A program made the position numbers and the translations under genes. A DNA stretch of 64,000 nt from Luteitalea sp. TBR-22 (GTDB lineage Bacteria > Acidobacteriota > Vicinamibacteria > Vicinamibacterales > Vicinamibacteraceae): assembly GCF_016865485.1 (NCBI RefSeq), contig NZ_AP024452.1, forward strand, positions 4,052,501 through 4,116,500, written 5' to 3'. Of this stretch, positions 5,237 through 49,025 are shown piece by piece. The notes beneath the pieces were generated by a model. That model worked only from the letters and a program-made list of their open reading frames with translations, was not told where the DNA came from and made no database searches. Each line of letters opens with the position of its first letter. Position 1 is the stretch's first letter.

Positions 5237-5797
5237 GTGTCCCCGGCCTTCCTGTCCCACGTGCTGCTCCTGCTGGGGGCAGGCTTCCTCGTGGCGAACC
5301 TGCGGATTCTGGCCGACGTGGTGCGCTTCTTCCGGATGCGCCCGCGCGCCCTGCTGACCTGGCCGGGCCAGCCGCCCCGCTACTACACCCTGTTCCTGGC
5401 CATGGCCGCAGTGCTCGGCGTGGTGCTCATCGTCAAACTCGCCGTGCTGCGGTGGCCGCCGCAGGCGGTGTTCGGCGAGGCCATGATGTTGCTCTACTAC
5501 GGCTACCTGGTGCCGCTCAGCATCCGGATCGGGCGCGGGTTCTACGAGGACGGCGTCTGGGTGGACAACGGGTTCCTGCCCTACCACGAGATCGGCGGTC
5601 TCAGCTGGCGCGAGGGCGAGACGCTCACGCTGCTCTTCATTCCGCGGATGAAGCAGGTGGCCCGCAGCCTCGTGGTGCCGACGCAGTTCTACGGCGCGGC
5701 GCGACGCCTGCTCCGCGACAAGATCGCCGGCCACGACATCGACTTCTGGGGCAAGGCGCTCGACCTCGGCGCACACGATCAGCGGGACGATGCCTGA
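5237..5797 (+). CDS. Membrane protein of unknown function
   Basis: A 186-residue protein starting at a GTG. It has three hydrophobic helices in the first 110 residues (LSHVLLLLGAGFLVANLRI, YYTLFLAMAAVLGVVLIVKL, GEAMMLLYYGYLVPLSI), followed by a soluble tail in which GFYEDGVWVDNGFLPYHEIGG and LTLLFIPRMKQVARSLVVP look like the strands of a small PH-like domain. Such layouts occur in several DUF families of membrane proteins, but I cannot name the family. It is flanked by an intergenic repeat upstream and a convergent tdk gene downstream. Confidence 0.75.
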   Translation: MSPAFLSHVLLLLGAGFLVANLRILADVVRFFRMRPRALLTWPGQPPRYYTLFLAMAAVLGVVLIVKLAVLRWPPQAVFGEAMMLLYYGYLVPLSIRIGRGFYEDGVWVDNGFLPYHEIGGLSWREGETLTLLFIPRMKQVARSLVVPTQFYGAARRLLRDKIAGHDIDFWGKALDLGAHDQRDDA

Positions 5798-5889
5798 GGC
5801 TCGCTCGGCCTCGTCTACAGGCGCCGCGCGCAGTCAGGGCTCATGCCCACGGCCAAGGCCGAAGGCCGAATGACGAAGGCCGTCGAGAA

Positions 5890-6471
5890 TCAGCCAGCGA
5901 GCGTCGGGTCGAAGCAGCGGCGGCAGCGGGCCTCGTACGAGTCGGTGGCGCCCACCAGCACCAGTTCCTGGCTCTTCACCAGGCGTTGCGTGTGGTTGGC
6001 CGGCTCGCCGCACACCATGCATATGGCCAGCGTCTTGGTGATGTACTCGGCCACCGCGAGCAACTGGGGCATCGGCTCGAACGGGCGTCCGAGGTAGTCC
6101 TGGTCGAGGCCAGCGACGATGACCCGCTTGCCGCGGTCGGCCAGCGTGCTGCACACGGCCGGCAACTCGACGTCGAAGAACTGCCCCTCGTCGATGCCCA
6201 CCACTTCGGTCTCCTCGAGCACGCCGGCGAGGATGTCGTCGGCGGTCCTGACGGCCAGCGACGGCAGCTTCATCTCGCTGTGCGAGGTGATGTGCGTCTC
6301 GGAGAACCGGTTGTCGATGGCCGGCTTGAACACCTGGACACGGCGCTTGGCGATCTGGGCACGCCGCAGGCGGCGGATGAGCTCCTCACTCTTGCCGCTG
6401 AACATGCTGCCGACGATGACTTCGATCCAGCCGGACGACGGGACGGGGCGCTGGGAGCTCTGATCTGTCAC
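5890..6471 (-). CDS. tdk: Thymidine kinase
   Basis: Type II thymidine kinase that phosphorylates thymidine to dTMP in nucleoside salvage. The 193 residues show the P-loop [15 protein letters not shown] (residues about 21-35), the central IDEGQFF motif (Asp/Glu at the Walker B-like position, about residues 93-99), the substrate lasso region [21 protein letters not shown], and the zinc-binding cysteines CMVC and CRRC near the C terminus. The length is normal. It follows efp on the same strand, separated by a hairpin-forming repeat. Confidence 0.95.
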
Positions 6472-6482
6472 TGGCGGACGAC

Positions 6483-6579
6483 GGGAATCGCGAATGGGGA
6501 GTCGGGAGTCGACCGACGCGGCGATGGAGGCTGGCGGGAGCGCCGTCGGCGACTCCCGATTCCCGCCTCCCGACTCCCG
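6483..6579. repeat. Inverted pair of GGGAGTC/GGGAATC arrays between efp and tdk
   Basis: The left arm carries GGGAATC, GGGGAGTC and GGGAGTC units (6483-6511). The right arm carries the complements CGACTCCC, GATTCCC, CCTCCC and GACTCCC (6550-6579). About 38 unrelated bases lie between. The arms can form a long stem, like the element inside uvrC. In this gap it could act as a transcript-end hairpin, which is inference. Confidence 0.75.
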
Positions 6580-6586
6580 GAAGTGA

Positions 6587-7150
6587 CTACACCCTCGAGA
6601 GGTATTCCCCGGATTCGGTGTTGATGCGCACCACGGTGCCGACTTCCACGAAGGCCGGGACGGTCACGACGTAGCCGGTCTCGAGGGTGGCGGGCTTGGT
6701 CTGCGCGTTGGCGGTGGCGCCCTTGATGCCGGGCACCGTGTCGACGACCTTGAGGTCGACCGTCGCCGGCAGCTCGATGCCGACCGGGTTGCCCTCGTAG
6801 AACTCGACGTTGATCATCGCCTCGGGCAGCAGGAAGTTCATGGAGTCGCCGAGCGCCTCCTCCGACATGCCGATCTGCTCGTACGACGACGTGTCCATGA
6901 AGTAGAACGTGTCGCCGTCCTTGTACAGGTACTGCATCTCGCGCTCGTCGAGGTGCGCCCGCTCCACCATGTCTTCCGACCGGAAGCGGTGTTCGAACAT
7001 CGTGGCGTCCTTGACCTTGCGCATCTTGGCGCGCACGAACCCACGCAGGTTGCCCGGCGTGACGTGCTGCGTCTCGACGATGCGACACAGCTCGTTGTTG
7101 TGCTTGATCAGGTTGCCCTTGCGGAGGCGGGTGGCGGCGACGGAACTCAT
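6587..7150 (-). CDS. efp: Elongation factor P (tip residue Asn instead of Lys/Arg)
   Basis: EF-P binds the ribosome between the P and E sites and relieves stalling at polyproline. The 187 residues have the three-domain beta-barrel layout and the family signature near the C terminus ([20 protein letters not shown]). The start ATG at 7150 has AGGAG four bases upstream; an upstream frame to 7264 is antisense to the Hsp20 promoter region. The beta3-beta4 loop that reaches the peptidyl-transferase centre reads [15 protein letters not shown], so the residue aligned with E. coli Lys34 (lysylated) and with the rhamnosylated Arg of Pseudomonas is Asn34. The protein would therefore not be a substrate for either known modification at that site, if the alignment holds. 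Confidence 0.95.
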
Positions 7151-7253
7151 GACACTCCTGGCAGACCGGTCGGCTCGGACGTAGCCGTCGCGCACGCGCG
7201 ACGGGGCCGGGTCCGCAAACCGAAGGATGGTAGCACGTGGCCGGTTTGCTACG

Positions 7254-7649
7254 ATGGACCCCATGCGCTGGGAATCCCTTCGCGAGTACCGGACCCGGGC
7301 CAGTCAGGCCGACCGGCGCGGCGACTCCGGCTGGACCCCGCCGGCCGACGTCAGTGAGACCGAGGACGCCTTCATCGTCATGGCCGAGTTGCCGGGCGTG
7401 CGGCGCACCGACGTCGACGTCGCCGCCACGCACGACACCCTGACCATCCGCGGCCATCGCCCGGACCCGGGCTGCGAACCGGCATGCTACGTGCGCCTCG
7501 AGCGAGGGCACGGGCAGTTCGTCCGCCGCTTCACCTTCCCGGGCCGTCTCGCCGTCGACGAGGTCCAGGCCGATTTCCGCGACGGCATCCTCACCGTGAC
7601 GCTCCCGAAGGCACCCGAGACGCGGGGCCGCCGGGTCGAGGTCGGCTAG
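7254..7649 (+). CDS. Hsp20/alpha-crystallin family small heat-shock protein
   Basis: ATP-independent holdase chaperone. The 131 residues contain the alpha-crystallin beta-sandwich: TEDAFIVMAELPGVRRTDVD, then DTLTIRGHRP, RRFTFPGRLAVDEVQADFRDGILTVTLPK. The signature A-x-x-x-n-G-v-L appears as ADFRDGILTVTLPK. Two in-frame ATGs (7254 and 7263) could serve as the start; I give the first. It is divergent from efp, and its stop lies four bases before the DegP-like protease gene, so the two are probably co-transcribed as a protein-quality pair. Confidence 0.9.
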   Translation: MDPMRWESLREYRTRASQADRRGDSGWTPPADVSETEDAFIVMAELPGVRRTDVDVAATHDTLTIRGHRPDPGCEPACYVRLERGHGQFVRRFTFPGRLAVDEVQADFRDGILTVTLPKAPETRGRRVEVG

Positions 7650-7653
7650 CGCC

Positions 7654-8775
7654 ATGCGGCGCCTGCTCCTGCCTGCCGCCCTCGTGGCGGCCAGTTTCTT
7701 CGCGGGCATGGTCGTCACCGGGCGCCTCGGCCCCGGTGAGCAGGCCACCGCCCAGTCCGGAGTTCCCGCGCCAGCCACGCCGGCGCCGACGCGCCCGGCG
7801 CTGCCGAGTGGTCCGCTCCCCGAGCTGGCCGACGTCGCCGAACGCGCGATGCCGAGCGTGGTCAACATCTCGGCCGTCGGGTCACGGCAGGTGCAACTGC
7901 CCTTCGGGTACTTCGACGAGCCGACCCAGAGCGCCGGCTCGGGCGTGATCATCAAGAGGACCGGCGACACCGGCTACGTGCTCACCAACGCGCACGTCAT
8001 CGGCGACGCCACCGAGATGACGGTGGTGTTGTTCAACCGTCGCGAGCGCCCGGCCGAACTGGTGGGCATCGACCCGTACGCCGACCTCGCCCTGCTGCGC
8101 GTCAAGGATCCGACGCTGCAGCCCATCACCTGGGGCGACAGCTCCAGGCTGCGCGTCGCCGAATGGGTGATGGCCATCGGCAACCCCTACCAGCTCGGCG
8201 AGACGGTCACGCTCGGCATCGTGTCGGCGCTCGGCCGCACCAATCCGCAGATCTCGGTGGTCGCCGACTACATCCAGACCGACGCCGCGATCAACCCCGG
8301 CAACTCGGGCGGCGCGCTCGTCAACCGGCGTGGCGAGCTGGTCGGCATCAACACCTGGATCTACAGCCAGAGCGGCGGCTATCAGGGCATCGGCTTCGCC
8401 GTGCCGAGCAACCTGGCGCGCGACGTGGCGACGCAACTCGAGCGGTTCGGCAAGGTGCGGCGCGGCACGATCGCCGGGATCCTGCGGATTGCGCCCTTGA
8501 ACACCGCGCTGGCCGCCGACCTCGGCGTGCGATCGACCGAGGGCGTGGTGATCTACCGCATGCGGCGCGGCCAGGGCGACGCCTGGGCGGCGGGCATCCG
8601 CGCCGGCGACGTGATCGTCGGCTTCAATGGCACGCCGATCACCGACACCGAGGGCTTCGAGCGCGCGATGCTCACTGCCCCCGTCGGCTCGGTGGCCACC
8701 CTGCGCGTCCGACGGGGCCGCGAGGAGTTCGACATCAAGGTGCCGATCACGGACGCGCCGGTGAGGAACCAATAG
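7654..8775 (+). CDS. DegP/HtrA-type periplasmic serine protease
   Basis: Trypsin-like S1C protease with one PDZ domain, expected in the periplasm for protein quality control. The 373 residues start with a signal anchor (MRRLLLPAALVAASFFAGMV) and a Pro/Ala linker, then the catalytic domain with His in LTNAHVIGDA, Asp in IDPYADLALLRV and Ser in AINPGNSGGALV. The PDZ domain follows (WAAGIRAGDVIVGFNGTPI, about residues 280-365). This is the DegS/HhoA layout with a single PDZ rather than DegP with two. It sits immediately downstream of an Hsp20 gene. Confidence 0.95.
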   Translation: MRRLLLPAALVAASFFAGMVVTGRLGPGEQATAQSGVPAPATPAPTRPALPSGPLPELADVAERAMPSVVNISAVGSRQVQLPFGYFDEPTQSAGSGVIIKRTGDTGYVLTNAHVIGDATEMTVVLFNRRERPAELVGIDPYADLALLRVKDPTLQPITWGDSSRLRVAEWVMAIGNPYQLGETVTLGIVSALGRTNPQISVVADYIQTDAAINPGNSGGALVNRRGELVGINTWIYSQSGGYQGIGFAVPSNLARDVATQLERFGKVRRGTIAGILRIAPLNTALAADLGVRSTEGVVIYRMRRGQGDAWAAGIRAGDVIVGFNGTPITDTEGFERAMLTAPVGSVATLRVRRGREEFDIKVPITDAPVRNQ

Positions 8776-8778
8776 AAC

Positions 8779-8880
8779 GGGAGTCGGGAGTCGGGAGTCG
8801 GGAGTCGGCACCAGCATCCCCTTCTGAACTCTGAACCGGAGTTCATGCTCTCTCAGCCCTGAGTCTCGAGCCCTGAGCCT
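8779..8880. repeat. GGGAGTC array and GAGCCCTGAG units in convergent gap
   Basis: Four GGGAGTC units occupy 8779-8807 directly after the protease stop. Units of the GAGCCCTGAG type follow at 8851-8880 just before the converging glycosylase gene. Two different repeat families therefore share one 110-base gap. Confidence 0.65.
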
Positions 8881-8886
8881 TCTGCT

Positions 8887-9510
8887 CTACCGCGGCTTGC
8901 CCGACACCGCCGGATGGCCCGGCACGTAAGCGCGCCACAGGCGGTCCTGACCGACGCGGATGCCGATCCGCGGGCTCCAGGCGACGGGCCGTGACGGCCG
9001 GCGCGACGGGCGCTCGATGCGGAGCGCTCCCTCCCACAGCGGCTGGCAATTCTGCATCCCCGTGATGGCCAGGGCCCGCGTCAGGTTGCCCGGTCCCCGA
9101 CACAGGTCGGCGTCGCGCCCGACGAAGCCGCCCTCGCCCGCCGCACGGTGCGGCGCTCGGCGACTCCGCATCAGGTCGAGGCCCTCGACAGGCTCGAGGG
9201 CGCGGATGAGCACCGCCGCGGGCGCCCCATCGGCCTCGGTGACCGCGTTCACCAGCCAGTGCATCCCGTAGTTGAAGTACACGTAGGCGAGCCCCGGCGG
9301 CCCGTACAGCGGCGCGTTGCGGCGCGTCGGCCCGGGAGCGGCGTGGCAGGCCGGGTCGTCCTCGCCGATGTACGCTTCCACCTCGACGATCAGGCCGGCG
9401 GTCGTGCCGTCGGGCGCCTCGTGCCGCAGCCGCATGCCGATGAGGTCCGCGGCGACCTGCAGCGTGGGGCGGGCATAGAACGACGGCGGGAGCGGACGCG
9501 CCGGAGCCAT
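8887..9510 (-). CDS. DNA-3-methyladenine glycosylase (AAG/MPG family)
   Basis: Base-excision-repair glycosylase of the AAG fold that removes alkylated purines such as 3-methyladenine. The 207 residues include the N-terminal LPPSFYARPTLQVAADLIGMRL, the catalytic-region VEVEAYIGEDDPACHAAPG (Glu that activates water), the intercalating YVYFNYGMHWLVN and the end motif DLCRGPGNLTRAL. The length is normal. ATG 9510 is used; the much longer open frame upstream overlaps the M24 gene on the other strand. It is divergent from the peptidase-like gene, with only 27 bases between the starts. Confidence 0.93.
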   Translation of the reverse strand: MAPARPLPPSFYARPTLQVAADLIGMRLRHEAPDGTTAGLIVEVEAYIGEDDPACHAAPGPTRRNAPLYGPPGLAYVYFNYGMHWLVNAVTEADGAPAAVLIRALEPVEGLDLMRSRRAPHRAAGEGGFVGRDADLCRGPGNLTRALAITGMQNCQPLWEGALRIERPSRRPSRPVAWSPRIGIRVGQDRLWRAYVPGHPAVSGKPR

Positions 9511-34389: not shown

Positions 34390-37300
34390 CTAGACCGCGA
34401 GACGCGTCGGCCCGTCGGTCACGTCGCGCGGCTGCCACTGCCGGAGGGCGTCGCGCAACTGCTCCTTCCGGATCGGCTTGGTCAGGTAGTCGTCCATCCC
34501 GGCGGCGCGGCAGCGGTCCCGATCCTCCTGCATGGCACCCGCGGTGAGCGCGATGATGACCTGGTGGCGCCCGTCGTCCTCGCCGGCCCGGATCCGCTGC
34601 GTCGCCTCGAAGCCGTCACACTCGGGCATCTGGCAGTCCATCAGGACGACATCGAACGGCAGGCGTCCGAGCATCTCGATCGCCTCCCAGCCGTTGCTGG
34701 CCACGTCGACGTGGTGCCCCAGCTTCTCTAGCATCTTCGTCGCGACCCGCTGGTTGACCGTGTTGTCTTCGGCCAGCAGGATCCGGAGCGGCGGCCCGAT
34801 GGGCGCATGCTCGGCGGTGACGGTCGCCGATTCGGGGCGGGCGACGCCGAGCGCATCCGCCAGGGCGGCAAGGAGGTAACGCCGTCGGATCGGCTTGCTC
34901 ACGAAGGCACTGAAGCCTGCGGCGCGCGCCTGCTCGGCGGCGCCCGGCTTCACGGTCGGCGCCACGAGCACGAGCGGGACGATGCGGCCGGCGGCATGGG
35001 TGCGGATGCGATCGCGCAACTCCAGCGCCGCGTCGAGGCCGTGCGGGGTGCCGACGAACACGACGTCGACCTGCTGGTCCGTCGTCGCCGCGGCGGCGAG
35101 GACCTCGACCGCGTCCTCGGCCGTCTCGACGCACGTCACCTGCATGCCACAGGCGGCCGCCGTGACGGCGATCATGTGGCGGTTGATGGGATGCGGGTCG
35201 ACGCAGACCGCCCACCGGCCGGGGGCGAGTGCCGCCGGGGTGAACTCGCGCGGTGCGTCGGTCAGGCCCAACCGCGCGGTGAACCAGAAGGTGCTACCGA
35301 CGCCCGGAGCGCTGTGCACGCCCACCGCGCCGCCCATCGTCTCGGCGATCTGCTTGCTGATCGCCAGGCCCAGGCCCGTGCCACCGTACTTGCGGGTCGT
35401 GGAGGCGTCGGCCTGCGTGAAGGGCGTGAACAGGCGAGCCGCGGCCTCGGGCGCGATGCCGATGCCCGTGTCGGTCACCTCGAACCTGAGGCGCGCCGCG
35501 TCCTCGTCGACGACGTGGCTGCTGACGTGCACGTGCACGGCGCCTGCGGCCGTGAACTTGACCGCGTTGCCGAGGAAGTTGACCAGCACCTGGCGCAGCC
35601 GGCCCGGGTCGCCGACCAGCATGTCGGGGACGTCCGGCTCGAGGATCACGCCACACTCCAGGCCCTTGCGGCGGGCGGCATCGGCCACCAGTTCGATGGC
35701 CTCCTCGACGACGGTCGGGAGGTCGAAGGGCACCGACTCCAGCGTGATGCGACCCACCTCGCCCTTCGAGTAGTCGAGGATGTCGTTGATCACGCCGAGC
35801 AGGTGGTCGGCCGATCCGCGCACCGTCTCGACGTACTCCCGCTGTTCGCGCGTCAGGTCGGTGTCGAGCAGGAGTCCGGTCATCCCCACCACGCCGTTGA
35901 TCGGCGTCCGGATCTCGTGGCTCATCGTCGCCAGGAAGCTGCTCTTGGCGGCCGTGGCCGCCAGCGCCATGTCGCGGGCCCGCGCCAGCTCCACGGCCTG
36001 CAGCTCGATCTCGTACAGGTACTCGTCGCGCGCGCGCTCGGCGGCCGCCCCGGCGGCGTTGTCCTGCAGGAAGACCCACTGCATCGGTTCGCCCTCGGGG
36101 CTGAACACGCGCAAGCCGCTGACGACCACCGGCACGGACTGGCCGCTCGCGGCGCGCAGCTCCGTCGTGAGCGGCCGGAACATGCCCGTGGTCTCGAGTT
36201 CTTGTCCATGCGCGGTGATGGCCTCAGCGGGCACGCCGACCGCCTCTGGCCTCAACGAGTCGAGGGCGCCATCTTCCACCTGCAGCAGGGCGAGCGCCGT
36301 GCGGTTGGCCAGCACGGGCCGGCGGGCCGCGTCGGAGAGGATCATGCCGATCGGCGCGTTCTCGAACAGTTCCCGGAAGCGTGCGGACGCCAGCGACTCC
36401 TCGCGTCGGGCCTGGTCGCGTTCGTCGAGCAGCCGGCTCAGGTCCCGGTTGGTCGCCTCGATCAGGTCGGCCTGCCGACGACTGGCGGCGACATGCCTGA
36501 CGCCCCCGCCGAGCGACGCGGCCAGGAGCACCCCGAGCAGCAGGACCAGGTGCGGCAGCGCCGAGGTCTGCTGGTCGAGCAGTTCCGGTGTCGGGGCCAT
36601 GGCCAGGTCGACCGGGACGCGCCCCATCAGCAGGATCCGGCGAGCCGCGACGGGCGCGCCCGCGGCGAACTGCCCGTCGGCGCCGATGGCCACGCCGCCA
36701 CTCCGGACGTGGTAGGCGTAGGACGCGTCGGCGAGTGGGGTCCGCAGCAGGCGGGCGAGCGCGAATGCGGTGGCCAGGAAGCCGGCTGGCCGGCCCGAAC
36801 GGTCGAGGCGCTGCAGGAGGGTGAACCCCATCTCGCCGTCGAGCAGTTGCGTCGGTCCACGCAGGACCGGCTCGTGCGTGTCCAGCATGCCCGCGAGTGC
36901 GACCCGTTCTGCCGGGGTGAGGACCGCCAGCGCAGCGCGCACCCTGCCCTCGGCGGCCTGCGGCCGGACCCACGGGTTGGACAGGTCGTCGAAGCGGGCC
37001 AGCGTGATCGCGTTGATCCGGCCCTCTGCGTCGACGACGTGCTGGTTCGCGTCCGACAGCCAGAGCGCCGCCTCGAGTTCGTTCCCCGTCTCGATGCGCT
37101 TGCGCATCCGTTCGAGCGACCTGACCATGCCTCGAAGCTCCTCGTGCAGGGCGGCCTCGATGCGATCGAGCCTGGTCTCCTGCAGATGCGCCACGGTGGC
37201 GCGCTCCTGGGCAATCAGGACCAACGTCAGCACACCGCTCACGGCCACGGTGTAGGCGGCCACCGTCAGCGGCGCCCAGGCGCCCCAGTGCACCAGGCCG

Positions 37301-37935
37301 CGGCGCACCTCGTAGTGGAGCATCGCCAGGGCCACCAGAATCGATGCGCCGGCCATCTGCGGCGACATGCTCAACCGATGCAGCCACGGGTCGCCCGTGG
37401 TGTGCCCGGCATAGCTGGCGATGGTCGTCAGCGCCAGCAGGCCCAGGACCAGTGCGGTCGCAAGCGGCAACAGTCGCAGCCACAGCCAGAGCCGCGCCAG
37501 GCGGCCCGACCCCAGCCTGAGTCCCACCAGCGATACGAGGAAGATGGCGAGCGCCGATTGCGGATGGCTGCGCTGCAGCGGGTCGGCCGAAAGGCGCGCA
37601 TCGAGCCACGTCACGGTGCCGGGCGACACCATCGAAGCCACGTGCCACACCAGGGCCGATGCCGCCAGCACCAACCCGATCCCGGCGGCGCCACGCGCCA
37701 GCGTCTGCCTCCCTCGTGCTGCCGCGAGCAGCCCGATGATGCCGAACGAGAACCCGAGGGCCGATTGGAGCCGGAACTGCTGCACGCCCGGCAGCGTGGG
37801 GACCAGTGCGGGCACGTGCAGGACGTGCCCGACCACGCCGGCCACGCAGACCAGGAGCGCGAGCGCCAGCAGGACCGTACTGACCAGATGCGGGCCCTGG
37901 CGCATGTCGGTGGCGGTCGGCGGTGGCATCGGCAC
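34390..37935 (-). CDS. Membrane hybrid histidine kinase with CHASE-like sensor, PAS, pseudo-receiver and receiver
   Basis: About 1181 residues. The GTG at 37935 follows GGAGG at 5 bases; an ATG lies two codons later at 37929. The frame extends to 38259 but there overlaps the divergent kinase. Domains: six or seven N-terminal helices, an extracytoplasmic CHASE-like region (about 240-470) closed by a TM helix ([20 protein letters not shown]), PAS ([20 protein letters not shown]), HisKA ([19 protein letters not shown]), HATPase ([27 protein letters not shown]), a degenerate receiver ([11 protein letters not shown] in place of the Asp strand), then a canonical receiver ([25 protein letters not shown]). 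The kinase and receiver modules closely match the downstream paralogue, so duplication with sensor swapping is likely. Confidence 0.92.
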
Positions 37936-38080
37936 GTCAGCCTCCACCCCGGAGGTGGAAACCGTATTGTCGGGAGCAATCGGCCCTCCACGGAGTTTCT
38001 TCAGGAATTGGCCGCGATTGGCGACACTCCACTTGCGACTGTCTCCATACCCCTCGGCCTTGCTACAGTGCTTGGCGCCG

Positions 38081-40144
38081 ATGTTCCTTTCCTTGCCTGC
38101 CGCCGCGCTTCTCCTGGGCGCGGCACTTGCTGGCGCCGCGCTGGCCATGCTCGGGTGCCACTGGGCCGGCCGCGTCCGGCGCGCCCATGCGGCGCGCGTC
38201 GAGGCGATCGTCGCCCACTCGATCGACGCCGCGTACCGCCGCGACCTCCGCACCGACACGTACGACTACCTGAGCCCGGCCCTCGAACGTGTCATGGGCG
38301 TGCCTGCACCGGTCCTGCAGGCCATGCCCCTCGACGAGTTGATCGACAGGATCCACCCGGAGGACCGCGCCCGCGTCGGGACCGTGGTCGAAGCCAGCAC
38401 CCGCATGCAGCGCGGCCGGGTGGAGTACCGCTTCCGCGCCGACTCGGGCGAGTACCGGTGGATTGCCGACCACTGGGCGGTGGAACCCGATGCCGAGGGA
38501 CGCCCCGCGTTCCGCAGCGGCATCCTCCGCGACGTCTCCGAGCAGAAGGCCACCGAGGCGGCGCTCCGCGCCAGCGAAGCCCGGTATCACATGCTGTTCG
38601 ACTCGATCGAGGACGGCTTCTGCATCGTCGAGGTGCTCCTCGACGCGCAGGGGGAGCCGCGCGACTATCGCTTCCTCGAAGCCAATCCCGCGTTCGACGG
38701 CGCGACGGGCCTGCGGGAGCCGGTCGGCCGCACGGCGCTCGAGCTGGTCCCGGGCCTCGACCGGTGGTGGGTACGCGCCTACGGCCGGGTGGCGCTCACC
38801 GGCGAGCCGGCGCGCTTCGAGAACTACGCGGCCGCGATGCAGCGCTGGTTCGACGTGTATGCGTTCCGCTTCGGCGATCCCGAAGCACGGCAGGTGGCGA
38901 TCTTCTTCAAGAACGTCACCGAACGAAAGCGCAACGAACTCGAGCGGGCCGCCCTGCTGCAACGCGAACGGCACGCCCGCACCGAGGCCGAGCGGGCGAG
39001 CCGGCTCAAGGACGACTTCCTCGCTACTATCAGCCACGAGTTGCGCACGCCGCTCAACGCGATGCTGGGGTGGGCGCAGATCCTCGCGCGTGGTGCCGAC
39101 GAGACGACCATCGCCCAGGGCCTAGGCGCCATCGAGCGCAACGCGTTGGCGCAGGCGCGGCTCATCGAGGACCTCCTCGACATGAGCCGGATCGTCACCG
39201 GCACGATTCGCCTCGACGTGCAGCCGGTCGACATGCGCCGGGTGATCGCCAACGCCGTCGAGACGGCGCGCCCGGCGGCCGAGGCCAAGGGGATCGGCAT
39301 CGCGATCATGCTCGACGAGGGCGCGACGGCGGTGCGCGGCGACGCGACGCGCCTGCCGCAGGTCGTGTGGAACCTGCTGAGCAACGCCGTGAAGTTCACG
39401 CCGCGCGGTGGCGAGGTGCACGTCCGCCTCGAGGCCGCCGGCCCCGACGTCCGCCTCACCATCACCGACACGGGTGAAGGCATCGCCGGCGATTTCCTGC
39501 CGCACGTCTTCGAGCGCTTCCGGCAGGCCGACGCGTCGACCACGCGGATGCACGGCGGCCTGGGACTCGGCCTGGCCATCGTCAAGCAGATCGTGGAACT
39601 GCATGGCGGCCAGGTGAGCGCGCGCAGCGAGGGCGCCGACCGAGGCGCGACGTTCGTGGTGACCCTGCCACGGCAGCCGGTGGCACCGCCGGCGCCGCCG
39701 GACGATCACGAGGTCGGCGGGTTGCAGGCGTCGCATCCGCCGTCCACGCAGCCCGAGGTGAGCCTGGCCGACGTCACCGTGCTGGCGGTCGACGACGAAC
39801 CGGACGCGCTGGCGGTGATCCGGCGGGTGCTGGAGGACCACGAGGCACGGGTGCTCACCGCGACCTCGGCCCACGAGGCGGTGACGCTGTGTGCGCGCGA
39901 GCACCCGCACGTGCTGCTGGCCGACATCGGCATGCCGCACGTGGACGGCTACGACCTGATCAAGCAGGTGCGGGCGCTGGGCGCCGAGGGCGGCGGCAGC
40001 GTGCCGGCCGCGGCCCTCACGGCGTTCGCGCGATCGGAGGATCGCACCCGCGCGCTCCTGGCCGGCTACCAGACGCACCTGGCCAAGCCGGTGCAGCCGG
40101 TCGAACTGGTGGCCGCCGTCGCGAGCCTCGCAGGACGCGTGTGA
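38081..40144 (+). CDS. Hybrid histidine kinase with two PAS domains and a C-terminal receiver
   Basis: 687 residues from ATG 38081. A single N-terminal helix ([20 protein letters not shown]), PAS 1 ([20 protein letters not shown] with PAC segment [19 protein letters not shown]), PAS 2 ([19 protein letters not shown]), HisKA ([19 protein letters not shown]), HATPase ([45 protein letters not shown]) and an intact receiver ([25 protein letters not shown]). It is divergent from the paralogous kinase pair, about 145 bases apart, and convergent with the sialic-acid lyase gene. Confidence 0.93.
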
Positions 40145-40198: not shown

Positions 40199-41122
40199 CT
40201 ACCCGGTCCACTCGTCGGGCAACACCGCGCGGATCTGCGGCGCCGCGAGGGCCTTGCGCAGCGCATCCTGCTGCTCCACCGACAGCCCCGCGCGCGGGAC
40301 CAGGCACGGCCCGCAGGGGATGCCCGACCACGTGAGCACCTGCTTGATGGCCGGGAACAACGGAAAGCGCAGCACCGCGGTGATGAGCGCGTTGACCGAG
40401 TCCTGCCGTTCGCGCACCTCGCTCCAGCGGCCGGCGCGCGCCAGCGCGTCGATGTCCACGAACTGGTCGGGGACGAGGTTGTAGAAGGAACCGATTCCAC
40501 CGTGCGCGCCCATCAACAGGCCGGCAGCGAGCACCTCGTCACGGCCGTTGAACACCACCCGTCCGGGCTTGGCGATCGCCGACAGCACCGACAGGTCGAA
40601 GTCGGTGAACTTGACGCCGGCGACGTTGGGCAGCGCGCAGATCTCCTCGAGGTGGTCGAGGGTGCGAATCGCCGGGTACGCCTCCGGAAAGTAGTAGACG
40701 ACCAGCGGCAGCGGGCTCGCCGCGGCGAGCGCCGCGTAGTACCGGCGCGCCTCGGGGAACCCGAAGCCCGGCCCGGCGGGCGGCAGGCTGCTGATCGCCG
40801 TCGCGCCGATGCGTCCGGCGTGCGTCGCGAGGTCGCGCGCGTCCTCGAACGACGCCGCCCCGACGTGGACGATCGCCGAATGCCCCGGCGGCGTGTTGGC
40901 GACAGCGATCTCGGCGACCCGGCAGCGTTGCTCCACCGACATCAGCAGCCCCTCGCCGGTCGTGCCGCAGATGTACGTGCCGTGCACGCCGGCGTCGAAC
41001 AGGCGCGCCAGAAGGCGCTCCAGGCTCGTCGTCGCCACCCGCCCGTCTTCCTCGAAGGGCGTGATGAGCGCCGGCAGGATCCCCTTCAGTGCGTCCACGG
41101 TCGTGATCTCCTTGTCTTCCAC
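40199..41122 (-). CDS. N-acetylneuraminate lyase-type aldolase (DapA/NanA family)
   Basis: A 307-residue TIM-barrel class I aldolase. It would cleave N-acetylneuraminate to pyruvate and N-acetylmannosamine. The pyruvate-binding motif is GTTGEG (residues about 53-58), the catalytic Tyr lies in LVVYYFPEAY, and the Schiff-base Lys lies in NVAGVKFTDFDL. GVKFTDFDL and GGIGSFYNLVP resemble the lyase branch more than dihydrodipicolinate synthase. It lies 46 bases downstream of the sialidase on the same strand, which supports the assignment. A related 2-keto-3-deoxy-sugar aldolase remains possible. Confidence 0.85.
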   Translation of the reverse strand: MEDKEITTVDALKGILPALITPFEEDGRVATTSLERLLARLFDAGVHGTYICGTTGEGLLMSVEQRCRVAEIAVANTPPGHSAIVHVGAASFEDARDLATHAGRIGATAISSLPPAGPGFGFPEARRYYAALAAASPLPLVVYYFPEAYPAIRTLDHLEEICALPNVAGVKFTDFDLSVLSAIAKPGRVVFNGRDEVLAAGLLMGAHGGIGSFYNLVPDQFVDIDALARAGRWSEVRERQDSVNALITAVLRFPLFPAIKQVLTWSGIPCGPCLVPRAGLSVEQQDALRKALAAPQIRAVLPDEWTG

Positions 41123-41168: not shown

Positions 41169-42332
41169 CTACCTGCCCTGCCTCACCCACGCGAGGTCGA
41201 CGCGCGCGAACGTGAGGCGCTCGTACGCGCTCTGCTGCCCGCGCTCGTAGAGCACGCCGATGGTGCCATCGCGCAGCACCACGAGGCACGAGTACGCCGC
41301 GGGGCCCTCGTGCAGCACGCGCCAGAACGGCCAGGTCTCACCCTCGTCCTCGCTCAGGCGGATCGTCATGCGCTCGCGGCCACGCCCCGACGGGTTGGTG
41401 AACAGCAGGAGGGCGCGACCACCCGACTCGGTGGTCGAGTACCGTAGCAGGCTGGCCTGCGCCGGCGGCTCGGGCAGCGCCTCGTCGAAGCGCAACGGCC
41501 CGAGCGTCCGACCACCGTCGCCACTCACCGCGACGGCCCGCAGGTTACGTGGCCGCGGCGGGTGGTTGCGCATGTTCAGCATCAGGCGACCGTCGGCCAG
41601 TTCCACCGCCTGGCTCTCGTTGGTGCCCTCCGGGGCAATCGCCCCGATGCGCCACGAGGCGCCGTGGTCGTCGCTGTACACCACGTGCGACCGATGCGCC
41701 TGCGTGCCGGCCACCGCGTGGTTGGCCGGGATGACGAGGCGTCCGCCCTGCAACTGGATGCCGATGCCGGGGCCGGTGGCGTACCACGTCCAGTCTGCCT
41801 GCTTGGTGCTCGCCGTGATCTCCACCGGGGTGGACCAGGTGCGGCCCTCGTCGAGGCTCTTCAGCACCCAGACGGTGCGCGTGCCGGCCGACGTGCCCGC
41901 CAGGATGTCGCGCTCGCGGTCGGTGCCACGGTTGTGCGTGGTCAGCAGCCAGATGGTGCCGGTGTCGCGGTCGATCACGGGACACGGGTTGCCGAACGTG
42001 TTCGGGCCGTTGTCGCCGACGAGCATCATCGGCCCCCACGTGCGCCCGCCGTCCTCGCTGCGCCGCGACACGAGGTCGATGTCGCCGGCGTCGCCGGCGC
42101 CGCCCTTGCGCGCCTCGGCGAAGGCGAGCAACGCACCCGACGAGGTCGCGATGATCGAGGGGATGCGGTACGTGTGGTAGCCGCCCTCTCCCGACACGAA
42201 CACGTCGACCTGCTCCGGATCGCGCCACGTTGCCGCGGCGGGCGGCTGCCCCGTCGGGGGCCGGGCCGGCTCGACGCCCACACCGCCGCCGAATGCCAGA
42301 CAGGCAAGGAGCACGCCGGCCAGCTTGGTCAT
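41169..42332 (-). CDS. Secreted sialidase (exo-alpha-sialidase, GH33 type)
   Basis: A 387-residue six-bladed beta-propeller neuraminidase that releases terminal sialic acids from glycans. The arginine-triad motif is YRIP in GYHTYRIPSIIATSSG (about residue 60); the acid/base Asp lies in EARKGGAGDAGDIDLVSRR. Five Asp-box motifs mark the blades: SEDGGRTWGP, SLDEGRTWSTP, SDDHGASWRIG, SGDGGRTLGP and SEDEGETWPF. The N terminus MTKLAGVLLACLAFGGG fits a short signal peptide; the LLAC could be a lipobox. The start overlaps the stop of the symporter gene by four bases (ATGA), so translation is coupled. Confidence 0.92.
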   Translation of the reverse strand: MTKLAGVLLACLAFGGGVGVEPARPPTGQPPAAATWRDPEQVDVFVSGEGGYHTYRIPSIIATSSGALLAFAEARKGGAGDAGDIDLVSRRSEDGGRTWGPMMLVGDNGPNTFGNPCPVIDRDTGTIWLLTTHNRGTDRERDILAGTSAGTRTVWVLKSLDEGRTWSTPVEITASTKQADWTWYATGPGIGIQLQGGRLVIPANHAVAGTQAHRSHVVYSDDHGASWRIGAIAPEGTNESQAVELADGRLMLNMRNHPPRPRNLRAVAVSGDGGRTLGPLRFDEALPEPPAQASLLRYSTTESGGRALLLFTNPSGRGRERMTIRLSEDEGETWPFWRVLHEGPAAYSCLVVLRDGTIGVLYERGQQSAYERLTFARVDLAWVRQGR

Positions 42333-44851
42333 CGTGCCTCCGCGGCAGGCGCCGGCCAGGCGAGGCTCGCCAGGTAGCCGAGCGCGAAGGCCGCCCCCGT
42401 GCCGATGCCGGCGTACAGCAGGAAGTGCACGGGCGTGCGTTGCTGCACCCACCCGAGCACCAGCGCGCTGGCCACCAACCCGACGACAGCACCGGCGGCG
42501 TTGGCCCGCCGCGTGAAGATGCCGAGCGCGAAGATGCCCGCCAGGCCGCCGCCGAACAGGCCGAGCGCCTGCAGGAACACGTCCCACAGCGAGCGCACGT
42601 CCCAGGTGGCGAGCCCGAGCGCGCTGGCCGTGCCGGCAAGGCCGATGACGAGGGTGAGTTGGCGCGCCAGCCGCATCTGCGCCACTTCGGGGCGCGGCCC
42701 GCCGAGCCGTGCCGTGAAGTCGGTGATGATGGCGGTCACGATGCTGTTGATGCTGCCGCTCAGCGTCGACATCGCCGCCGCGAACACGCCCGACACGACC
42801 AGCCCCGACACTCCGGGCGGCATCTGCTGCGCGATGAACCAGGCGAAGGTCGCATCGGTGGGGGTGGAGGGATTCAGCAGGCCGGGGTGCGTCCGGTAGA
42901 AGGCGAAGAGCGCGCTGCCGACGCCGAAGAACAGCAGCGAGCTCGGCACGGCCATCGCGGCGCCCAGCCAGATCGCGCGCCGCGCCTGCCGCTCGTCCCG
43001 CGTCGTGAAGTACCGCTGGACCACCGCCTGGTCGGCCGTGTAGGGGACCAGGTGCGACACCAGGTTGCCGAAGAACACCACCCAGATGGACGCGATGGTG
43101 AGGTCGGGCGTCCACGTGACCATGTGGAACTTCCCTGCGGCCCGGCCGACCCCGATCACCTGTGCGGGATCGCCGCCGGTGCCGATCACGATCAACACCA
43201 GCGCGACCACCACGGCGCCGAGCAGCACCACCGACTGCAGCACGTCGGTCCAGATCACGGCGTTCATGCCACCGTGCAGCGTGTAGACCGTGCAGAGCCC
43301 GCCCATCAGCAGGATCGACAGGCGGATGTCCATGCCGGTGGCGGCCGCCAGGGCGAGCGCCGGCAGGTAGAGCACGATCGCCATGCGCGCCCACTGCAGT
43401 GCCACGAACGACGCGCTGCACAGCAACCGCACCGCGAGGCCGAACCGGTGCTCGAGGTACTCGTACGCCGTGGTCACCTGCAACGCGCGGAACCGCGGCA
43501 GGTAGAACAGGATCACCACCGGGGCGATCAGCACGATGCTCAGGTTGCCCGGCAGGTACGTCCAGTCCTCGGCGTACGCCTTGGCCGGGATCGCCAGGAA
43601 CGTGATGGCGCTCAACTGCGTGGCGTAGATGCTCAGGCCGGCCGCCCACCACGGGACGCGCCGCCCGCCGAGGAAGAAGTCCTCGCGCGTGTCGTCCTGC
43701 CGGGAGAAGCGCCTGCCGATCCAGACCAGCGGGAGCAGGTATGCGGCCAGCACCAGGTAGTCGAGCCACCCGAAGGCCCGCGCCGTGACCACCAGCGTGG
43801 CGCGCGATACCGTCGCCGCGCGGTGCCCGGGCCGATCCTCGCCACCGGCCACGACGAGGCCTTCACCGTCGCGCACGGCGGCCGTGGTCACCAGCGGCGT
43901 GGGAATCTCCCCGATCGACGTCCAGGTGTCGGTGATGGCGTGGTACGCCAGCACCTGGCGGCTGAACCCGGGGTGCCGCTCCCGCAGCGTCGCCACCTGC
44001 GAGGCGAGCCCGCCATCGTCGCCTCCCAGCACGAAGACGTGCGACTGTCCCCACGGGACGGCAGGCGCCGCGACGACTGGCCTGGGCACCGGCGCGATGG
44101 CGGTCCACCCGGTCCGGGGCGTGAACCGCCAGGCGTCCACCAGGTACGTGCGCGCCGCGCGGCCGTCGGCCCCGGGCGCCAACGCGGCCCCGCTCATCAC
44201 GTGGAGGGCGCCGGCCTGCGCGACGACGACGGGCAGGATCCGGCCGTCGCCGGGCAGCGGCGCGACCTCGCGCCACTGGGCTCCGGGGATGTCGAGGTCG
44301 AGCGCCCAGACGCGGCGGCTCGCCGCAGTGTCGGCGGGCGACACCTGCCCGCCGACCACGAACAGCGAGCGCCCGAGGACGGCGCCGCCGGCCATGGCGA
44401 GCGGCGTGGGCAGGGCCGGCAGTGACGCCCGCGTCACCCGCCCGTCGGCCAGCGTGAGCGCGAACGTGTCGGCAAGGTGCCTGGTCGCGTCGTTGCCGCC
44501 GACCACCACCAGGCGTGATCCGTCCTGGGCGACCGCGGCGTAGCCGAGTGGGCGAGGCAGCACGTCCGACGGCAGACGCTGCCACGCGGTGGCGCCGCGT
44601 GGCAGCAGGAACGCGTCGGCGTGCCACGTCTTGGTGCCGCCCGCGAACGGGCTGACGGGAAAGTCGGTGCCACCGGCAACGAGCAGGGCGCCGGCGAGCA
44701 GGCCCGTGACGTGGCCGCTGCGCGGCACCGGCACCGGCGGCAGTGACTCCCAGGCCAGAGTGGTGACCGGCGCCTGTGCGCGCGCCGTGCCGGCCAGCAC
44801 GACGAGGGCGAGGATGGCAGCCGCGCCCGGCAGCAGAGCCCGGCAGGTCAT
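42329..44851 (-). CDS. Kelch (NanM-like sialic-acid epimerase) fused to sodium:solute symporter
   Basis: 840 residues from ATG 44851. A signal peptide (MTCRALLPGAAAILALVVLAGTARAQ) leads into about 300 residues of kelch propeller repeats (RSGHVTGLLAGALLVAGGTD, RLVVVGGNDATRHLADTF, GRSLFVVGGQVSP, HVFVLGGDDGGLA, GLVVAGGEDRPG), similar to N-acetylneuraminate epimerase NanM. A helix-rich SSS-type sodium symporter follows from about residue 350 (FGWLDYLVLAAYLLPLVWIGR, then ISGRR-like FLGGRRVPWWAAGLSIYATQLSAITFLAIPAK). The epimerase would face the periplasm and convert the alpha anomer released by sialidase to the form taken up by the porter. The sialidase gene overlaps its 3' end. Confidence 0.88.
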   Translation of the reverse strand: MTCRALLPGAAAILALVVLAGTARAQAPVTTLAWESLPPVPVPRSGHVTGLLAGALLVAGGTDFPVSPFAGGTKTWHADAFLLPRGATAWQRLPSDVLPRPLGYAAVAQDGSRLVVVGGNDATRHLADTFALTLADGRVTRASLPALPTPLAMAGGAVLGRSLFVVGGQVSPADTAASRRVWALDLDIPGAQWREVAPLPGDGRILPVVVAQAGALHVMSGAALAPGADGRAARTYLVDAWRFTPRTGWTAIAPVPRPVVAAPAVPWGQSHVFVLGGDDGGLASQVATLRERHPGFSRQVLAYHAITDTWTSIGEIPTPLVTTAAVRDGEGLVVAGGEDRPGHRAATVSRATLVVTARAFGWLDYLVLAAYLLPLVWIGRRFSRQDDTREDFFLGGRRVPWWAAGLSIYATQLSAITFLAIPAKAYAEDWTYLPGNLSIVLIAPVVILFYLPRFRALQVTTAYEYLEHRFGLAVRLLCSASFVALQWARMAIVLYLPALALAAATGMDIRLSILLMGGLCTVYTLHGGMNAVIWTDVLQSVVLLGAVVVALVLIVIGTGGDPAQVIGVGRAAGKFHMVTWTPDLTIASIWVVFFGNLVSHLVPYTADQAVVQRYFTTRDERQARRAIWLGAAMAVPSSLLFFGVGSALFAFYRTHPGLLNPSTPTDATFAWFIAQQMPPGVSGLVVSGVFAAAMSTLSGSINSIVTAIITDFTARLGGPRPEVAQMRLARQLTLVIGLAGTASALGLATWDVRSLWDVFLQALGLFGGGLAGIFALGIFTRRANAAGAVVGLVASALVLGWVQQRTPVHFLLYAGIGTGAAFALGYLASLAWPAPAAEAR

Positions 44852-47664: not shown

Positions 47665-47740
47665 GGCACGGCGGCACCGAGAGCCGCCGTTGCCAGGACA
47701 CCGACGGGCGCGTTCCTCACGGGGCGCGCCCGTTGTCGTT

Positions 47741-47862
47741 CTTGGGCCTTGGGCCCTGGGCCTTGGGCCCTGGGCCTTGGCCTTGGGCCTTGGGCCTTGG
47801 CCTTGGGCCTTGGGCCTTGGGGCCTTGGCCTTGGGCCTTGGGCCCTGGCCTTGGGCCTTCCC
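47741..47862. repeat. GGGCCTT/GGGCCCT tandem array
   Basis: About 120 bases made almost only of CTTGGGC and CCTGGGC-type units with few substitutions. It begins downstream of the Gfo/Idh stop and ends two bases before the left inverted repeat of the IS481-type element. Any open frame through it is low complexity. Confidence 0.85.
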
Positions 47863-47864
47863 CC

Positions 47865-49025
47865 TGTGCAACCGGAAGCATGGGTAACAGCTCAGACCGG
47901 ATAGATGGGTGACACGTTCATGAGTGTGTGGGGGCGACGCGGCGCCCGTGCCACCCAGGCGTGAAGCGGCGCGTCTGCCGCCCTATGCGGCCCAGTTCGA
48001 CCTGGAGAAAGCGGACGGTCCAATCCCCGCGGGGCGTTTCAACCAGGCCGACGAGCTCGCCCCGGAGGGCTTCGCTGACGAAGACCAGCCCGCCCTGCCA
48101 CTTGATCTGCCCCGTGGGCCTCACGCGGCGAACCTGGTGCTGCGCGTCGTACCACGGGTCTTCGAGGCGCGCGGGGTAGGGCCGGGGCGAGGCGCGATAG
48201 CGCGTCGCGGGAGGCTGCAGGTCCAGGGCTCATGCGGACGCTCGTCGTTGAAGAGCCGCCGATGCGCATCGATACGCCGTTGCTGCGCGCCTGGGGTTCG
48301 CGCGGGCGGGGTGCTGGCGTCCTGCTGCAACGTCAGATGAAAACGCTCATGGCGGCCATTCTCCTGCGGCGCCCCGGGCGTGATGCGGTCGAGGGCAATG
48401 CCCGGCTTCAGCTACCACACCGCGAGCTGGGACAGGCGGCCCGCGCCCGTCGTGGCAAAGGGCGGCCCGTTATCGCTGCGCAGCGCCCGCGGCAGCCCGT
48501 ACTCGCGAAAGGTGCGCTCCAGCCACGGGCGCACGCCGCGCGCATCCGGCGACGTCATACGACAGCACAGCACATCGCGACTCCAGGCGTCGGTGACGGT
48601 GAGCGGGTTGCAGCGCGTGCCGTCTTGCGTCCGAAACCAGCCCTTGAAGTCGATGCACCACACATCGTTGGGCGCGGTGGCGTCCGCCAAGGGCTGCGTG
48701 AGCGGCACCGGGTAGCGCGTCCGGCGCTGCGGCGGGGGCCATGGCGCGCCCGTGCTGGTGCGGCGCCCGCGAGCGGTCGCCGAGCCCCGTCGCCGGCGCG
48801 GGCTCGTACCGCTCGACCCACTTGTAGGCCGTCTTGCGACTGATGCCGTACCGGGCGGCCAACCCGGTCATCGTCCAGTCCTCGCGCAGCCAATCCGCGA
48901 TGAACGCCACACGCTGATCCGTGGGACAGGTCTCTTTCCAGGGCATCGCAGGACCGACCTCCTGCCTCCCTCGTACCTGTCACCCATGCATCCGGTCCAC
49001 TCTGTTACCTATGTAACCGGTTCAG
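47865..49025 (-). mobile_element. Degenerate IS481-family insertion sequence
   Basis: The element is bounded by imperfect inverted repeats of about 46 bases. The left end (47865-47917) carries AACCGGAAGCATGGGTAACA, then GACCGGATAGATGGGTGACA. The right end (48975-49025, inverted) carries AACCGGTTACATAGGTAACA, then GACCGGATGCATGGGTGACA. Inside lies the remnant transposase on the minus strand. The length of about 1.16 kb fits the family minus an internal deletion. No clear target duplication is visible because both flanks are C-rich. Confidence 0.85.
47930..48946 (-). pseudogene. Broken IS481-family transposase
   Basis: The first frame (ATG 48946) encodes the helix-turn-helix end, MPWKETCPTDQRVAFIADWL and MTGLAARYGISRKTAYKWVE, up to DRSRAPHQHGRA. 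After a frameshift near 48730 and an apparent loss of about 50 codons compared with intact relatives, a second frame resumes with the catalytic core (APNDVWCIDFKG carrying the first Asp, LRSDNGPPF the second). A TAG at 48412-48414 replaces the Trp expected after LAVW, then the frame continues with ENGRHERFHLTLQQD, which holds the catalytic Glu. Another frameshift follows near 48200 before the C-terminal IKWQGGLVFVSEALRG. The gene cannot make a working transposase. Confidence 0.85.

Follow-up and report, generated by a model that had tools for sequence, protein, structure and literature searches.

We have studied a window of 64,000 nucleotides from the genome of Luteitalea sp. TBR-22, a term which we use for the whole stretch of DNA analysed (contig NZ_AP024452.1, positions 4,052,501–4,116,500); this genome is a single contig of 6.47 Mb. 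The window contains a gene which codes for a kelch propeller related to the sialic acid mutarotase NanM, followed by a sodium:solute symporter (SSS) related to the sialic acid transporter SiaT. A sequence-only reading had proposed that a signal peptide, a kelch domain and an SSS transporter share one frame here, and the Pfam and NCBIfam matches agree with it. Next to the fusion gene there are a sialidase gene and a gene for an aldolase of the N-acetylneuraminate lyase type (Table 1). The stop codon of the fusion overlaps the start of the sialidase by 4 bases (42329–42332) and the lyase gene lies 46 bases past the sialidase. The next gene downstream is convergent and ends at position 40144, so that the operon seems to comprise three genes.

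Table 1. Features of the fusion gene and its operon in the window (pLDDT: predicted local distance difference test)
Feature	Position	Strand	Remarks
Gene of the kelch-SSS fusion protein	42329..44851	-	840 aa + stop
Predicted signal peptide, residues 1-26, MTCRALLPGAAAILALVVLAGTARAQ	44774..44851	-	hydropathy; cleavage site by eye
Cyclically permuted NanM-like kelch propeller, residues 27-355	43787..44773	-	Pfam NANM, TIGR03548, 2UVK, model pLDDT 91.8
GE..P..R motif, Glu338-Arg344 (= 2UVK 209, 215)	43820..43840	-	precedes first symporter helix
SiaT-like sodium:solute symporter core, residues 359-829	42365..43777	-	profile, sequence and fold matches
Unwound segment of transmembrane helix 1 (TM1), residues 412-417 (QLSAIT)	43601..43618	-	alignment to SiaT
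Arg489 = SiaT Arg135, carboxylate salt bridge	43385..43387	-	alignment to SiaT
Sialidase, GH33-type, BNR repeats	41169..42332	-	Pfam BNR_2; best solved relative 1w8n/1eur
N-acetylneuraminate lyase-like aldolase (NanA)	40199..41122	-	NCBIfam NanA models first but below cut-off

The fusion frame is confirmed as real. A full-length fusion with 76% identity is found in a genome of the same genus (L010/L029), and full-length fusions which keep the GE..P..R motif are found in five phyla. A chance frame, or a spurious open reading frame (ORF) of GC-rich DNA, is ruled out by these close and distant relatives. The N-terminus has a hydrophobic segment (residues 1–25, ending in TARA-QA) which looks like a signal peptide by hydropathy and by eye. 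Pfam places NANM/kelch matches in residues 33–324 and SSF in residues 392–793. The second half belongs to the SSS/SSF family: PF00474 gives 137 bits with a cut-off of 22.8, and TIGR00813 gives 230 bits with a curated cut-off of 184, from residue 392 to 795 over the whole profile (positions 1–411 of 411).

In agreement with the sequence-only reading, the best solved relatives of the two halves are NanM and SiaT. For the propeller we have used a profile (A2) made of nine kelch halves: the window, L029–L035 and L039. A search of the PDB with it matches 94 solved sequences, of which E. coli NanM (2UVK) is the best, with an E value of 6e-36. The alignment comes in two swapped pieces: profile positions 126–340 fall on residues 3–221 of the chain and positions 10–126 on residues 228–350. 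The family PF24996 also matches the propeller, with 81 bits and a cut-off of 45. The kinship with NanM proposed by the sequence-only reading has thus been found, with a correction: the order of the blades is cyclically permuted relative to NanM. This permuted order is that of TIGR03548, the family of cyclically permuted mutarotases, which aligns in one piece (residues 45–278 on profile positions 5–232). The sequence isGEvrPgvR of the window aligns with INGEAKPGLR of NanM, so that the NanM active-site residues expected by the sequence-only reading are present. We take Glu209 and Arg215 of 2UVK to be the catalytic residues of NanM; Severi 2008 is reported to have mutated them as such. The equivalents of Glu338, Pro341 and Arg344 (E312, P315 and R318 in the domain) are invariant in the nine sequences of A2. 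Modelled with AlphaFold, the propeller reaches a predicted template modelling score (pTM) of 0.90, and 24 strands can be counted in the model. It aligns over 264–280 residues with kelch domains such as those of Keap1 and NS1-BP (VIA-align). These strands and alignments indicate six blades, with the blade number that we presume for kelch structures of the Keap1 type, instead of the five repeats previously suggested.

The symporter half is closest to SiaT. With phmmer, SiaT (5NV9) gives 348 bits and the next solved structure, SMVT, gives 172. The model of the full-length protein (pLDDT 82.3, pTM 0.82) has 5NV9/5NVA as top Foldseek matches, with template modelling scores of 0.92/0.94 by target length, and in the trees the window symporter groups with SiaT. 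The roles of the SiaT residues are taken from PMC5931594, including Thr58, which contacts the anomeric hydroxyl; the same article describes binding of the beta anomer by Proteus SiaT. The carboxylate site of the window symporter is intact: Ser414 and Thr417 correspond to SiaT Ser60 and Thr63, and Arg135 is also present. In SiaT numbering Asp182, Ser342 and Ser345 are retained, and Ser343 is replaced by Thr (Ser342 and Ser343 belong to the Na2 site). Phe78, Gln82 and Phe243 are replaced by Tyr, Asn and Asn. These are the residues of S. aureus SiaT, which is functional and prefers N-glycolylneuraminic acid (Neu5Gc) over N-acetylneuraminic acid (Neu5Ac) (PMC6039549). The three changes therefore do not count against sialic acid, and they suggest that uptake of Neu5Gc may equal or exceed that of Neu5Ac. 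A family specific for another solute, which would have spoken against the sequence-only reading, is not what we find: the scores, the conserved carboxylate residues and the operon with sialidase and lyase all point to SiaT.

Among 82 rows of SSS ORFs, in which L010 and L029 are copies, all 21 fused rows and 2 of the 61 others have the arginine at SiaT position 135. The unfused symporters L014 and L015 and those of Rufibacter and Spirosoma have it, which weakens its use as a mark of the fusion; the unfused Rufibacter and Spirosoma proteins show that it marks carboxylate binding and not fusion. At position 58, Thr is found in four out of five unfused SiaT-like proteins and in none of the 14 fusions with the motif.

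The position of the propeller relative to the membrane can be predicted. The first symporter helix comprises residues 360–378 and there are six Arg in the next 20 residues. By the positive-inside rule this side should be cytoplasmic and the propeller outside, in agreement with the signal peptide, so that the propeller is probably periplasmic. Arg344 lies 16 residues ahead of the first helix, and the blade with the motif would therefore be tied directly to the membrane.

The partners in the operon also point to sialic acid. The sialidase is closest to the hydrolytic enzyme 1w8n/1eur (186 bits), presumably from Micromonospora; the anhydrosialidase 4x47 has 88 bits. For the aldolase, each of the best 36 matches is an N-acetyl- or acylneuraminate lyase (152 bits), and the best dihydrodipicolinate synthase has 93 bits. 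In the genome of the window there is one TIGR03548 place (E up to 1e-12), and the three PF24996 places are all inside the fusion. Apart from the fusion, no NanM-like protein was found in this genome. Elsewhere in it a nanE gene adjoins a kinase gene of the BadF/BadG family (L096:7885–10185), which may supply later steps of the pathway, and there are four ROK-family matches. Searches of this genome found neither an N-acetylglucosamine (GlcNAc) 2-epimerase nor YhcH.

Relatives of the fusion were collected in one scan of genome contigs, which gave 57 loci. Its seeds were query peptides which included YHAITDTW, so that the set is biased toward this sequence; its apparent invariance has not been used as evidence, since it was a search seed and later loci show YHTITNTW, YNAITN and similar forms. 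Fourteen fusions with the motif have been counted, including the window; L047, at the end of a contig and similar to L030, has been left out. In the Acidobacteriota we find L029 (the same gene as L010 and as L093 of genome G004), L086, L087 and L088, as well as L089/L012 and L091/L011, which have broken frames. The full-length fusions of other groups are from Pirellulales (L030), Salegentibacter (L031), Kiritimatiellae (L032 and L033), Rikenellaceae (L034), Alistipes (L035) and Verrucomicrobiales (L039). A nanA gene is found within about 5 kb in nine of the 14. In eight of these nine it is next to the fusion or one gene off (window, L093, L091, L086, L087, L030, L034 and L039); in L035 it is about 4 kb away. 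L030 and L039 have the order nanA, fusion, GlcNAc 2-epimerase. L034 has as neighbours nanA, SusC/SusD-type genes and a sialidase, and L031 has genes for a SASA-family sialate esterase and a GH20 hexosaminidase before the fusion. The trait is patchy: 7 of the 297 Acidobacteriota genomes drawn have a TIGR03548 match (E up to 1e-12).

Two loci show a different arrangement of frames. In L091 (positions 5339–9504 of the locus; genome G005, from the family of the window genome; also L011) the kelch domain is in one frame, while symporter and sialidase share a frame of 951 aa; it is possibly a kelch-SSS-sialidase triple fusion, or the result of assembly indels. In L092:4511–6978 (genome G059) a free-standing kelch protein, which shares 54% identity with the kelch half of the window protein, lies directly upstream of a sialidase which is 63% identical to that of the window; no symporter was detected in 12 kb there.

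Other fusions have no Glu/Arg motif. L036 and L045 have an N-terminus with the length of a propeller. L036 adjoins a PcRGLX-type gene and L045 an arabinofuranosidase gene. In L037, L038, L040–L044 and L046 only about 140–210 residues precede the symporter; these proteins are verrucomicrobial, belong to the same clade, and their short N-terminal remnant still holds YHAITDTW. In the motif-less clade, unlike in the window, SiaT position 63 is Ser and position 58 is Gly or Asn. No nanA was found in the stretch searched around these ten loci (L036–L038 and L040–L046). A different situation is found in Pseudoalteromonas sp. HL-AS2 (L098:19686–41395), with two long symporter genes of the fusion family which are annotated just as symporters. 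Their neighbours are a sialidase, TonB receptors, nagA, a lyase, a separate kelch protein, NanR, NanE, a ROK kinase and NagB. Both long symporters are devoid of the motif, and the separate kelch protein has Glu and Arg with the same spacing (GEVKAVQR). The N-terminus of the second symporter gave no NCBIfam kelch match, so that its label as a fused propeller relies on length and position. SSS genes (PSHAb0151/0160) have been described in the nan cluster of Pseudoalteromonas haloplanktis, and the word kelch is absent from the available text of the article (PMC2693436).

From these data we consider it quite probable that the window protein combines a sialic acid mutarotase, tethered to the membrane, with a Na+/sialic acid symporter. 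The domain order, the homologies, the residues of motif and pocket, the operon and the absence of a second NanM-like protein come from sequence comparison and modelling; from them we infer catalytic activity, substrate, periplasmic side and a benefit of tethering. The alpha anomer is what retaining sialidases release, and its equilibration in the periplasm is accelerated by NanM (PMC3658417, PMC10017367, PMC8141875). In the window organism the sialidase of the operon would be exported and release alpha-sialic acid. The periplasmic propeller, through Glu338 and Arg344, would speed the conversion of the alpha into the beta anomer, which the SiaT-type symporter would import together with Na+. The lyase would split the imported sialic acid in the cytoplasm; the next steps, as far as GlcNAc-6-phosphate, may be taken by NanE and the BadF-type kinase, whose genes lie elsewhere in the genome. 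Anomerisation would in this way be coupled to import.

Several observations weigh against this interpretation. The match with mutarotases is below the curated cut-offs: TIGR03548 gives 95 bits with a cut-off of 243, and TIGR03547 (NanM), with its different blade order, 59.9 bits with a cut-off of 256. 2UVK is not among the 50 matches listed by Foldseek or VIA-align, which place generic kelch domains first; the permutation may explain its absence. In the symporter Gln412 replaces Thr58 of SiaT, and Asn247, Gln250 and Ser346 are replaced by His, Pro and Gly. The Na3 site (Asp182, Ser345 and Ser346, with Thr allowed at the serines) is therefore incomplete: Asp and one Ser are kept and Ser346 is Gly. 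The Ser346Ala variant of Proteus SiaT still transports (PMC5931594). For five of the 14 motif-bearing fusions no nanA was found in the stretch searched; in four of them (L032, L033, L088 and L089) no nan gene was found there with the queries used. Finally, some fused relatives have lost Glu and Arg, which indicates that the domain can persist without mutarotase chemistry.

This last point leads to the idea that the propeller is no enzyme, or no longer one, and acts for the symporter as a periplasmic lid which binds or gates and which captures sialic acid or sialoglycans. The motif-less relatives which retain the domain (the two of Pseudoalteromonas, L036, L045 and the group with short remnants) agree with it. 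However the window protein keeps Glu338 and Arg344, no other NanM-like protein was found in its genome, and the motif-less locus with a complete nan set has a separate mutarotase with Glu and Arg, as expected if the enzyme is needed somewhere. An enzymatic role would agree with this pattern, in which the motif is lost beside a separate mutarotase and conserved in a fusion which has no such partner, although it is a single case. We therefore consider such a lid unlikely. An even smaller chance is given to a different substrate, another nonulosonic or carboxylated sugar such as KDN (ketodeoxynonulosonic acid), compounds related to Kdo (ketodeoxyoctonic acid) or uronides. The pocket differs from Proteus SiaT at several residues, and fusions with Arg135 but no motif adjoin the PcRGLX-type and arabinofuranosidase genes mentioned above. 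On the other hand, sialidase and lyase match sialic acid enzymes best, three key differences of the pocket are those of S. aureus SiaT, and the motif-less clade departs from the window at positions 63 and 58.

It is also conceivable that the transporter takes 2,7-anhydro-Neu5Ac or Neu5Ac2en (2-deoxy-2,3-didehydro-Neu5Ac) and the propeller serves another step. SiaX, an SSS transporter of the ST5 family, takes Neu5Ac and Neu5Ac2en (PMC10955332). This is hardly credible here: the window sialidase is nearest to a hydrolytic enzyme and far from the anhydrosialidase, and by eye no NanOx/YjhC-like gene adjoins the operon, although no genome-wide search for such a gene was made. A membrane-tethered mutarotase which feeds a sialic acid symporter is thus the explanation that we prefer.

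The origin of the fusion has been studied with FastTree and IQ-TREE on 36 SSS rows; the branches of EcaSSS and of two outgroup rows are long. The window groups with L029, L011 and L086 (100/99). Four classical SiaTs (Proteus, Plesiomonas and two lactobacilli) are placed beside the fused L039 (95/86), inside the fused set. Monophyly of all fused rows is not rejected by the approximately unbiased test (p-AU 0.062); monophyly of the motif-bearing rows together with Pseudoalteromonas is rejected (p 0.0002). The nesting of SiaTs among fusions suggests that the SiaT lineage lost its propeller. One may go further and propose that the product of the propeller passes directly to the symporter, that the contact with the anomer (Thr58 in SiaT) changed with the fusion, and that the fusion is ancestral to ST5, with classical SiaT arising by propeller loss. 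We hold this as a tentative and rather doubtful extension. If it were true, sialic acid released as the alpha anomer would stay with the protein throughout its opening, its closure as beta and its import.

Outside the operon we have noted two other features of the window. By eye, two large frames similar to hybrid sensor kinases are found on opposite strands at positions 34390–40144, on the downstream side of the operon. Around 47700–47870 there are low-complexity frames on both strands (KAQGPRPKAQG and WALGPGPWP), which suggest a short intergenic tandem repeat.

Whether periplasmic mutarotation limits the import of sialic acid has been debated on the basis of NanM knock-outs, the effects of which are modest. 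Here enzyme and importer are in one chain, so that their link can be tested by point mutations in a single gene. The family also offers natural variants, with the motif present, the motif lost, the propeller shrunk and possibly a triple fusion. It is a clue to the origin of SiaT, a drug target in pathogens, and it places the equipment for sialic acid scavenging in free-living bacteria: the host of the window is a soil bacterium.

Both halves of the protein are of known kinds, and their fusion is widespread and apparently little noticed. No description of a kelch-SSS fusion was found in the literature searched; Severi 2008 and Severi 2021 may mention one. A 2021 review of prokaryotic SSS proteins discusses fusions with sensor kinases, and the terms kelch, propeller and mutarot are absent from the part of its text that was available (PMC7918813). 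With SiaT (ST5; Proteus mirabilis 5NV9 and S. aureus) the window protein shares the LeuT-fold SSS core, Ser60, Thr63, Arg135 and the Na2 site, and with the S. aureus protein also the three pocket residues. It differs by an additional N-terminal part of 355 residues, predicted to be periplasmic, by Gln instead of Thr58 and by Gly instead of Ser346 in the Na3 site. With E. coli NanM/YjhT it shares a kelch propeller with the Glu/Arg motif and, by prediction, export. However NanM is a soluble homodimer, while in the window protein the blade order is permuted and the propeller is joined to a transporter. The TIGR03548 family, to which belongs a mutarotase gene of Parabacteroides merdae induced by Neu5Ac (PMC12893687), shares the permutation; the window protein is joined to a transporter and scores below the family cut-off. 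The locus of Pseudoalteromonas sp. HL-AS2 is similar in having a kelch-SSS fusion beside a sialidase, a TonB receptor, nagA and a lyase, with NanR, NanE, a ROK kinase and NagB nearby. The difference is that Glu and Arg are missing from its two fused propellers and kept in a separate mutarotase, whereas in the window the pair is found in the fusion itself.

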